From: Mechercharimyces sp. CAU 1602
Lineage (GTDB): Bacteria; Bacillota; Bacilli; Thermoactinomycetales; JANTPT01
DNA: 64,000 bases
NCBI RefSeq assembly: GCF_024753565.1
Contig: NZ_JANTPT010000001.1
Location: 62,001-126,000, forward strand
Direction of reading: 5' to 3'
In this document: in pieces, positions 2,938-54,173 of the stretch
Numbering within the stretch: the stretch's first letter is position 1
How the letters are laid out: each line of letters opens with the position of its first letter
The notes under the pieces: generated by a model
Told to the model about the DNA's origin: nothing
The model's database searches: none
Seen by the model: only the letters and a program-made list of their open reading frames with translations
Position numbers and translations under genes: made by a program

Positions 2938-3366
2938 ATGGCTGTGATTCCGACGAATAGTGAGCAAACCAGGTTGTTGGCTCGTTTAATGCGAGCAGAG
3001 GCCGAGGGTGATGGAGAGATGGGAATGCTCCTAGTGGGTAATGTCGGGGTGAACCGTGTCCTGGCTGACTGCTTGGACTTCGATGATATTCGTACGATTG
3101 AACAGATGGTGTATCAAAGCCCTGGTGGGTTTGAAGCGGTACAAAAATCCTATTTTTATCAAAAAGCAAGGGAGAGAGATGTGCGTTTAGCTGAGAAAGT
3201 GATAAGAGGGTTACAGTATCGTCCGGCGGAAATTTCTCTTTGGTTTTATCGCCCAGCAGGGGATTGCCCTCCTACGTGGTATGGGCAGATAAATAGTGGA
3301 CGCTACAAATCTCATTGTTTTTTTATTCCGACTTATCAAGAATGTCCTAATGTATATACGCGCTAA
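2938..3366 (+). CDS. cwlJ: Spore cortex-lytic cell wall hydrolase CwlJ
   Basis: Hydrolase that degrades spore cortex peptidoglycan during germination, held in the coat. The 142-residue product is a single SleB/CwlJ hydrolase-2 domain with the family landmarks LARLMRAEAEGD, GNVGVNRVL and the C-terminal stretch around SHCFF. It has no signal peptide, as expected for CwlJ (unlike SleB), because it is made in the mother cell. A ribosome site AGGTGATT precedes the ATG. The next gene is gerQ, whose product is needed for CwlJ to be placed in the coat, so the pair is a functional operon as in many Bacillus species. Confidence 0.93.
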   Translation: MAVIPTNSEQTRLLARLMRAEAEGDGEMGMLLVGNVGVNRVLADCLDFDDIRTIEQMVYQSPGGFEAVQKSYFYQKARERDVRLAEKVIRGLQYRPAEISLWFYRPAGDCPPTWYGQINSGRYKSHCFFIPTYQECPNVYTR

Positions 3367-3381
3367 AAGGAGGTGAATAAC

Positions 3382-3738
3382 ATGTATTGGAATCCGTATG
3401 CATCAACCTATGGGCGTCCACCGGGGTCTGTCTATCCGGAGCAAACGGCTATGTTTCAAGCAAAAACCTCCCAACGAGGGGGGACGCAACTCTACACAGA
3501 AGATGTGATGAGAGCGAACATTGGCAAGTTGATTACGGTTTACTTAACGTTTGAAAACAATCCACAGTGGCCTTCTAAGGTGTTTACAGGAACACTGCGT
3601 GAAGCAGGACGGGATTTTATTTTGATTCGTGATCAACAATCGGGGAAAGATGTTCTGCTTATGAATATTGATATTGATTACTATGTATTTGATAATCAGC
3701 CTGCCAATTTGGCTGGGAATCGGCAGCATCAGGGCTAA
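3382..3738 (+). CDS. gerQ: Spore coat protein GerQ
   Basis: Inner-coat protein required for CwlJ localisation and a known transglutaminase cross-linking substrate in Bacillus. The start at 3382 is used because AAAGGAGGTGAATAAC directly precedes it; the GTG at 3373 lies inside that ribosome site. The N-terminus is Tyr/Pro/Gln rich, followed by the conserved globular part with IGKLITVYLTFE and DYYVFDNQPAN. It lies 15 bp after cwlJ and is almost certainly cotranscribed with it in the mother cell. Confidence 0.93.
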   Translation: MYWNPYASTYGRPPGSVYPEQTAMFQAKTSQRGGTQLYTEDVMRANIGKLITVYLTFENNPQWPSKVFTGTLREAGRDFILIRDQQSGKDVLLMNIDIDYYVFDNQPANLAGNRQHQG

Positions 3739-51952: not shown

Positions 51953-52031
51953 GCCTTGATTTCCATGTATAAATGAGCTAAGATAATATTATAATGAGAA
52001 TGAGAATTGATTTCAATAAGGTGGGGGAACC

Positions 52032-52484
52032 ATGAATAGTCCAGTTCACGGTTTGATTGATATGAGTACCATCTTGCAACACCGACGCAAGCTGGGAGGT
52101 GCGATTGAAGCGGAGAGCGTCCGTTTGCGCACGGGAGAGTCTTTCTCTCAAGTGGTAGTGGTTTCTGCTGAGCGGACACGTGATCACGTGTATACGGTAG
52201 GGTTGGTGACAGAAGATGGTGAGCATCTCATTGTTCACACAGGGGAAATTTCTATGATTGTAAAACCACGCCATGTCTGTGTAAAAGAGTTGCGCAATCA
52301 AGTATATCGTCAACAACGGGAACACGAATTAATTTGTTATTTAAAACGATTGATGGATGTGAGCGATGGCTTTCAATCACCGGGGGTAAGGGATGAGGTT
52401 TTACGTATCATAGAAGATATCGGCTGGGATGCGGTTAACGAGTATAAAGAGTTTACATTCTTACAAAAGGGCATAAGTGCCTAA
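52032..52484 (+). CDS. Protein of unknown function
   Basis: 150 residues, no signal peptide or membrane segment. The middle looks beta-rich (VVVVSAERTRDHVYTVGLVT, HLIVHTGEISMIVKP) and the C-terminus helical. Not recognised. AAGGTGGGGG precedes the ATG. An AATGAGAATGAGAATTGA stretch at 51991-52009 resembles Fur-type sites loosely. Converges on the encapsulin operon with separate terminators for each direction. Confidence 0.65.
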   Translation: MNSPVHGLIDMSTILQHRRKLGGAIEAESVRLRTGESFSQVVVVSAERTRDHVYTVGLVTEDGEHLIVHTGEISMIVKPRHVCVKELRNQVYRQQREHELICYLKRLMDVSDGFQSPGVRDEVLRIIEDIGWDAVNEYKEFTFLQKGISA

Positions 52485-52537: not shown

Positions 52538-52573
52538 ATAAAGAAAAGCGAACCCTCGCGAGGAGGATTCGCT
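52538..52573 (-). terminator. Terminator of the encapsulin operon
   Basis: On the reverse strand AGCGAATCC/GGGTTCGCT arms with one mismatch, followed by TTTCTTT. It lies 15 bp past the encapsulin stop. Confidence 0.75.
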
Positions 52574-52587
52574 AAACTTTACTTCAA

Positions 52588-53424
52588 TCATGCATGTTGA
52601 CTTTCTAGAGTACAGATCGCTGTAGGACGTTTAATGCGTGGCACGAGCGTTTCATAAACGCGGAAACGATGATTCATATCTTCTCCATCTACATAAACAG
52701 CATGTAGATCTTGCCCAACAGCAATATCTAAGTTTTGTGATCCGGTAGCAAGCAGCACACCGGTTTGTCCTTTGATAGCAGAAGATTGATATACCCCATC
52801 AGTAACAAGCTCCCGCACGTGTTCAATTTCTAATACGTGGGTTCCTGGATGAACGCGGTGGAGGAGGGCATATAGATCGGGTGACAGGACGAGAGCGTAT
52901 GGACCTGCATGTCCTGCCGCTAAGAGCTTACTACGTGCTTCCACAATATCTTGGAAAGCGTGCCCTGCTTTGATCCAATCTTCGCGAAGCAGGGTATGTC
53001 TACCTTTTACATTCATGATGCCTTGAAGATGGAGGCTGTTATCTCCATTAAAGATCAGATCATCTTCTTTAAAAGCGACATAAGCAGCGGCGTCAGCTGC
53101 ACCGCTGAGGTCGATCGGAGTATCCAGCTTATCTGCCATTTCGAGGTCGCGCCAGTAGAGAAGGAAATCCTTATATATAATTGGAATATCTAAATTTACG
53201 CGTGAGGATGGTTCAGCCAGCTTCCCGCCTTCTCCCGTTAAATCGAGATGTCCAGGCTTGGGCTCGGAGTAGATGAAATGCGGAACGCTTTGGATTCCTG
53301 CGCCTAGAGGGCCGTATAAAGAGAGAAAGCGTCTGGCTACTAATTGTCGGCGTGCTGTCTCTATGACGACGCGTTGTAACTCATGTGATGTCTCATGGGA
53401 TAGGGGTGAATCTGAATGGCTCAT
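52588..53424 (-). CDS. Encapsulin shell protein (family 1, HK97-fold)
   Basis: 278 residues with the encapsulin (linocin M18) pattern: an N-terminal helix with VVIETARRQLVARRFLSLYG, then GPLGAGIQ, later WRDLEMADKLDTPIDLSGA, LIFNGDN, and the C-terminal ALVLSPDLYALLHRV and VYETLVPRI. It self-assembles into a protein compartment that takes up proteins bearing a C-terminal loading peptide. The length is close to that of the T=4 IMEF encapsulin shell (about 280 residues, from memory). The start at 53424 stands behind GGAGG and overlaps the stop of the second cargo gene (ATGA), so shell and cargo are translationally coupled. Confidence 0.92.
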   Translation of the reverse strand: MSHSDSPLSHETSHELQRVVIETARRQLVARRFLSLYGPLGAGIQSVPHFIYSEPKPGHLDLTGEGGKLAEPSSRVNLDIPIIYKDFLLYWRDLEMADKLDTPIDLSGAADAAAYVAFKEDDLIFNGDNSLHLQGIMNVKGRHTLLREDWIKAGHAFQDIVEARSKLLAAGHAGPYALVLSPDLYALLHRVHPGTHVLEIEHVRELVTDGVYQSSAIKGQTGVLLATGSQNLDIAVGQDLHAVYVDGEDMNHRFRVYETLVPRIKRPTAICTLESQHA

Positions 53425-53711
53425 GATCGATCCTCCAATCGAGAAAGTGTACCAACAGTCCATTGTTTGGATGAACCCGCTGGTTCTGCCGTATCATTTC
53501 CGGTAAAGCGTTCATTTAATTCGATGACAATCTCTTTTAAGCGCATGTAATCTGCTCCCGATATTTGTCGTAGCTCTTTTAATTTGCGTTGTTTTTCGAT
53601 ATCATCGGGAAGCTCGTACATCGCGAGGTCTAGGTGTTCAACAAAGTTGTGCAGACCAAATTTTTCGATCTGGATAGCTTGCAATACTTGTAAAAATTCA
53701 TGGTTATTCAT
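53421..53711 (-). CDS. Encapsulin cargo, resembling the C-terminal half of IMEF
   Basis: 96 residues, mostly helical, beginning MNNHEFLQVLQAIQIEKFGL. The part IEKFGLHNFVEHLDLAMYEL and the following LKELRQISGADYMRLKEIV resemble what I remember of the second half of the IMEF cargo protein, an iron-oxidising ferritin-like encapsulin cargo. The C-terminus, after a flexible linker, is KQWTVGTLSRL, a good encapsulin loading peptide. The ATG at 53711 has an ideal AAAGGAGG, which lies inside the last codons of the preceding gene. Candidate metal ligands are His21, Glu25, His26 and Asp28. Confidence 0.8.
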   Translation of the reverse strand: MNNHEFLQVLQAIQIEKFGLHNFVEHLDLAMYELPDDIEKQRKLKELRQISGADYMRLKEIVIELNERFTGNDTAEPAGSSKQWTVGTLSRLEDRS

Positions 53712-53991
53712 GGGAACCTCCTTTGTTGGAACGAAGGTCTCCAACAGTCCACTTGCTTGACGAGCCCTCAACTCGGGAGGGTTGTTCTGTTAATTCCTCA
53801 AGTTGAGGAATTAACTCCTCCAAGCGCTTCAGTCGTTCTTCCTCTTCTTCAATAATATGGTGGAAGTACAGTCGTTCTTTCTCTGTTGTCGCATTATCTA
53901 CAGCAGGCTCCAACATATGGACAAAGGTTTCAATAGAAGATTTTGTCCGTTTGAAGAGGGTATGAAGTTCATGAAAAAGATGATCATCCAT
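53704..53991 (-). CDS. Encapsulin cargo, resembling the N-terminal half of IMEF
   Basis: 95 residues. A helical hairpin (FHELHTLFKRTKSSIETFVH and LYFHHIIEEEEERLKRLEEL) resembles the first half of the IMEF cargo as I remember it, including the Tyr/His-His/Glu cluster that could bind iron. After a linker it ends with SKWTVGDLRSNKGG, again a loading peptide of the W-T-V-G-x-L form. The last eight bases overlap the next cargo gene, and its final codons double as that gene's ribosome site. AGGGGGAT precedes the ATG at 53991. First gene of a three-gene operon with the encapsulin shell. Confidence 0.78.
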   Translation of the reverse strand: MDDHLFHELHTLFKRTKSSIETFVHMLEPAVDNATTEKERLYFHHIIEEEEERLKRLEELIPQLEELTEQPSRVEGSSSKWTVGDLRSNKGGSHE

Positions 53992-54173
53992 TAATGTAAT
54001 CCCCCTAGAATTTTTGCCCTCTGCCCGTCATGGTTCTGGGTTTCTATGCTAATATTATGGTACGGTCATTGGTTTGTAAAGGTGTTCTCCTGTTATAAGT
54101 TACCCTAAAGGTGGTAAGATAAGCAGCGGATCATGATGAAAGTAATGGCTGTTAGAAGAGGTAGGTGTAATTA

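Follow-up and report, generated by a model that had tools for sequence, protein, structure and literature searches.

An operon in the Mechercharimyces sp. CAU 1602 genome, located within the 64,000-nucleotide stretch of contig analysed here (the window), is best read as an iron-storage encapsulin operon of the IMEF type, with a cargo of two tagged polypeptides that pair into an IMEF-like bundle, a reading to which we assign a probability of about 85%. IMEF is a ferritin-like ferroxidase, normally the product of one gene, which serves as cargo in the iron-storing encapsulins of Firmicutes. At the level of sequence it is confirmed that the operon encodes a split IMEF, each half with its own loading peptide. 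The upstream gene (N) provides the first two helices and the downstream gene (C) the last two, ahead of the gene of an encapsulin shell. The same arrangement occurs in Marinithermofilum abyssi, and single-half relatives are found in another order of Bacilli.

Organization of the operon

The elements of the locus, in window coordinates, are:

53704-53991 (-): N gene, 95 residues; IMEF helices 1-2, linker and tag (PF24309 and 6n63 matches)
53421-53711 (-): C gene, 96 residues; IMEF helices 3-4, linker and tag (PF24309 and 6n63 matches)
52588-53424 (-): shell gene, 278 residues; family 1 encapsulin of IMEF type (NF041155, 9fy6/6nj8)
53728-53754 (-): loading peptide of the N product, KWTVGDLRS, from sequence; like the TVGSL tags of one-piece IMEFs
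53436-53465 (-): loading peptide of the C product, QWTVGTLSRL, from sequence
53716-53724 (-): ribosome-binding site of the C gene, AAAGGAGGT, from sequence; within the N tail, past its tag
53431-53436 (-): ribosome-binding site of the shell gene, GGAGGA, from sequence; within the C tail
54052-54080 (-): promoter-like site 5' of the N gene, TTTACA-17-TAATAT; weak, at the level that chance alone would give here
52547-52573 (-): terminator-like hairpin 3' of the shell gene, an 11-pair stem followed by a T-rich tail
52032-52484 (+): uncharacterised 150-residue gene, transcribed towards the operon; 78 of 80 IMEF loci have a homologue

The preliminary description of this DNA had reported overlapping genes of 95 and 96 codons before a shell gene, and its coordinates are right, with all three genes on the minus strand. 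The N and C genes overlap by 8 nt, and the C and shell genes share the bases ATGA. Both products extend beyond their tags, the tails reading ...SSKWTVGDLRSNKGGSHE in N and ...SSKQWTVGTLSRLEDRS in C, because the ribosome-binding site of the downstream gene sits in that tail.

Behind a flexible linker, both products carry a TVGSL-type C-terminal tag (TVGDL in N, TVGTL in C), each deviating at one position, with D or T replacing S. The motif [ST][VI]Gx[LM] stands at the end of the N and C products only, among 293 stop-to-stop frames of at least 60 residues in the window. The sequence confirms a WTVGxL loading peptide on each half, as claimed earlier, and also the reported identity of bases at the two tags: 11 bases, TGGACTGTTGG, are common to both and fall within a 27-nt direct repeat (74% identity) formed by the tag regions of the two genes. 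The window contains 10 matches to the Fur box TGATAATNATTATCA with up to three mismatches, where chance predicts 6.7, and these make no case for a Fur site.

The two cargo products are consecutive halves of IMEF

The N product matches positions 1-68 of the family model PF24309 (IMEF_Flp; 3.3e-23) and the C product positions 69-135 (2.4e-20), both over the cut-off. The two matches are consecutive and do not overlap, and the pair covers the whole model. Against the solved IMEF 6n63 the N product aligns to residues 8-70 (3.6e-15) and the C product to residues 78-152 (4.5e-15). The proposal that the products are consecutive halves of IMEF thus held both on this alignment and on the family models. 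The curated NCBI model TIGR04536, whose cut-off of 100 bits is set for the whole IMEF protein, gives 85.9 bits for N and 83.5 bits for C; each half falls below that cut-off, so routine annotation may miss a split IMEF. The single four-helix polypeptide used as an IMEF criterion is here divided over two genes, with two helices each. The EncFtn models TIGR04535 and EncB_fam match neither product at E values up to 1. Across the whole genome (98% complete) PF24309 matches this locus only, and a second intact IMEF is absent. The genome also encodes a Dps-like protein and a second ferritin-like protein, and holds no match to Bfd ferredoxin.

The shell is a family 1 encapsulin by NF041155/PF04454 (6.9e-85; 284.6 bits, cut-off 100). 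Its nearest solved structures are 9fy6 and 6nj8, the latter the T=4 shell of Quasibacillus thermotolerans, and it shares 56% identity with that of a Bacillus thermotolerans locus (L069), given which a T=4 assembly is likely here as well.

Predicted fold and conserved site

The two genes can be translated as one chain by reading a single four-base word (AACA as N). AlphaFold2, supplied with this joined chain and 44 one-piece relatives, predicted four helices with pLDDT above 90 and a pTM of 0.80. VIA-align superposed the model on 6n63 with a Z score of 19.8 (1.7 Å over 141 residues), the next match being a designed helical bundle (Z 12.2), and Foldseek also ranked 6n63 first (5.6e-08). A run on the joined chain without an alignment, which served as a control against copying of the fold from the alignment, gave the same bundle (pTM 0.70; Z 19.4 to 6n63). 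The linker of the joined chain is artificial and absent in the cell, and the modelled fold shows compatibility of the halves rather than complex formation.

Together the two products keep 37 of the 40 near-invariant IMEF columns, defined by conservation in 97% or more of the one-piece forms; the three altered columns are V31, T36 and I108. The metal-ligand candidates that are kept, in joined-chain numbering, are H44, H45 and E48-E50 on N, and E109, H114, E118 and H119 on C. The di-iron site of IMEF consists of two histidines and two bridging glutamates on helices 2 and 3 (PMC11202242). These helices reside on different polypeptides here; therefore one product alone should not be able to rebuild the di-iron site.

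Proposed assembly and cargo loading

In the assembly that we propose, one N and one C product would pair into a single IMEF-like four-helix bundle, a putative heterodimer. Two such pairs would then dimerize, and their interface would build the di-iron ferroxidase site from residues that N contributes on helix 2 and C on helix 3. The tags would attach every subunit to the wall of the shell, an N2C2 unit thus presenting up to four tags instead of two, and iron entering the shell would be oxidised and mineralised.

The presence of a tag on each product suggests that each subunit may be loaded independently. In Q. thermotolerans, removal of the 13 C-terminal residues of IMEF yields empty shells (PMC6668986); since tag loss has this effect, one tagged half might suffice for a pre-formed pair. 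Retention of tags on both halves in both split genomes suggests either that each half is separately loadable or that four tags help. Two separately tagged halves of split Venus are co-loaded and reconstituted inside an encapsulin in yeast (PMC5882880). As a speculation, the arrangement could be of benefit by confining ferroxidase formation to places where both halves reach a high concentration.

The two products could instead be two homo-oligomeric cargos, each self-pairing in the manner of EncFtn and both merely co-loaded. The two-helix proteins of EncFtn do build four-helix bundles between chains (PMC5012862), and the single-half relatives described below must do something alike. We nonetheless regard this reading as improbable: the split halves retain complementary IMEF signatures, they dock as in 6n63 in the alignment-free joined-chain model, and N and C occur together in both split genomes. 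That the operon is a decayed or mis-sequenced IMEF gene is very improbable, for although simple breaks exist, such as the frame break without a second tag in the N half of locus L042, the break here bears a second tag, a ribosome-binding site and a start codon, and the same design in M. abyssi, with an in-frame stop and no frameshift, contradicts it.

A second split genome and the distribution of IMEF forms

A search for the same split in related genomes, suggested in the preliminary description, found the identical two-gene, two-tag arrangement in M. abyssi (G007). The N halves of the two genomes are 66% identical and the C halves 54%, and the M. abyssi tags read PWSVGNLRF and RFTVGNMINR. The sequence AAAGGAGAG stands 5' of the second start in that genome. 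Because it is common to M. abyssi, the two-gene, two-tag layout is taken to be old and maintained and not a sequencing error. Between the two split operons synonymous sites have reached saturation, and the differences fall mostly at third codon positions, as expected of maintained genes. N and C are separated by an in-frame TAG in M. abyssi and by a frameshift in the window. Expression of a fusion by programmed frameshifting or read-through was considered and rejected, since junctions that differ in this way leave no common mechanism.

IMEF occurs in 5 of 42 surveyed genomes of the order, three times in one piece and twice split. Among 399 genomes of Bacilli, 45 have a one-piece IMEF and two a split one. 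A set of 80 related loci comprises 78 with one-piece IMEF, the split locus of M. abyssi and L042, which has a plain frame break. The latter belongs to Bacillus sp. EB600, in which IMEF loci lie on three contigs (L018, L040 and L042); at L042:3705-4333 the N half is broken and lacks a second tag, as a result of either decay or assembly error.

Single-half relatives in another order

Three genomes of another order of Bacilli (G179, G104 and G054) have a single tagged two-helix cargo 5' of an IMEF-like shell, and a C half was not found in any of these genomes. The cargo sites are L116:3231-3548, L117 near 3350-3673 and L121 near 1477-1833, and such cargos possibly represent a further cargo type. 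P0005, one of these cargos, aligns with both halves of 6n63, and matches TIGR04536 (IMEF; 1.1e-8), EncB_fam (1e-7) and TIGR04535, each below its cut-off. A profile of the three single halves matched both halves of an intact IMEF (from G063), at 4.8e-6 and 3.2e-6. HHalign related the three to the N halves with 96% probability and, less surely, to the C halves (59%), and in comparisons of C halves with single-half cargos 100 of 102 exceeded the shuffled 99th percentile. A direct comparison of the N and C profiles gave no match. Since the single halves match both halves of IMEF, the probable origin of IMEF is an internal duplication of a tagged two-helix unit of this kind.

Tagged 2Fe-2S ferredoxins are known for IMEF operons. 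In one of the single-half systems, L116:2230-2631 (-) encodes a 2Fe-2S ferredoxin-like protein whose N terminus bears the tag KKLTVGSL.

Origin of the split arrangement

The preliminary description had seen in this operon a cargo gene that split while duplicating its tag. The two-tag split stands; the direction is one of two, and the trees do not decide between them. On balance fission is slightly favoured, and all statements on origin are based on two split genomes.

Under fission, towards which we lean, a one-piece IMEF gene was divided within the linker, its N half gaining a tag of its own. The combined shell and cargo tree puts the split lineage beside one of two one-piece clades (support 88/84), one-piece IMEFs far outnumber the other forms, and the 27-nt tag repeat is compatible with copying of the tag. 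Against this, the break would have had to acquire a new tag, a ribosome-binding site and a start, and the shell trees set the split lineage outside the one-piece forms, although weakly. Trees that unite the split forms with one-piece IMEFs from the same order are rejected on shell and cargo together (p 0.006) but not on the shell alone (p 0.254).

The opposite course, which rivals fission on origin and not on function, starts from a tagged two-helix gene that was duplicated, one-piece IMEF being a later fusion in which the first tag was lost. We consider it a credible alternative, somewhat short of an even chance. It has no second tag to invent, and single tagged two-helix cargos with IMEF-like shells exist in the three genomes of the other order, where they match both IMEF halves and EncB_fam. 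Shell trees rooted on other encapsulins give the order half, split, one-piece (84/73; 68/36), an order that the combined data do not reject (p 0.255). He et al. proposed that ferritins derive from duplication of an EncFtn ancestor (PMC5012862), in line with this course. The combined shell and cargo tree, however, favours fission; the single halves are nearer to N than to C and could be N halves that lost their partner; and the branches are long, with split forms in two genomes only.

Tentatively, and with somewhat less confidence, the tagged pair may be a stage, preserved to this day, in the emergence of a four-helix ferritin-like enzyme. If so, living systems would display each step from EncFtn-like halves to four-helix ferritins. 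With the split and single-half systems, the hypothesis that ferritin-like proteins arose by duplication and fusion can in any event be tested on living examples.

A conserved neighbouring gene

Homologues of the gene at 52032-52484, wherever they occur in the IMEF loci, adjoin the shell gene and never share its strand, and all three single-half systems have one too. Its product belongs to no Pfam or NCBIfam family, and among solved structures it has weak matches to designed TPR repeats, none of them convincing. The available part of PMC6668986 names ferredoxin and ferrochelatase, and not this gene, which we regard as a candidate new component of IMEF systems. Upstream of the gene but on the other strand, at 52016-51988 (-) of the window, is the region's best sigma-70-like match, surrounded by the GA-rich sequence GAGAATGAGAATTGATTTCAAT at about 51985-52030 (+).

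Comparison with known systems

No natural encapsulin cargo enzyme in two separately tagged subunits was found in the accessible portions of open-licence PMC papers; for a split or two-subunit IMEF, the same portions yielded only engineered split reporters. No paper on encapsulins of Thermoactinomycetaceae was found among open-licence PMC papers.

The closest system is the IMEF encapsulin of Q. thermotolerans (cargo 6n63, shell 6nj8; PMC6668986), which is alike in sequence, helices and ligand candidates, in having a C-terminal TVG-type tag, and in its shell type and gene order. Its cargo has one gene and one tag, whereas here there are two of each, which changes the ratio of tags to cargo. EncFtn/EncB (PMC5012862) shares units of about 100 residues with two helices, a C-terminal tag and an inter-chain four-helix bundle, the last predicted here. 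EncFtn, however, is one gene product with an ExxH motif, in contrast to the two different products with IMEF signatures described here, whose di-iron site would depend on co-loading of both halves. Split Venus, loaded into an encapsulin in yeast (PMC5882880), is alike in carrying a targeting peptide on both halves, and its co-loading and reconstitution inside the shell would be shared as well. Venus is a man-made reporter and the cargo described here a natural enzyme; the two-tag split mirrors in nature the split fluorescent protein trick of engineers.
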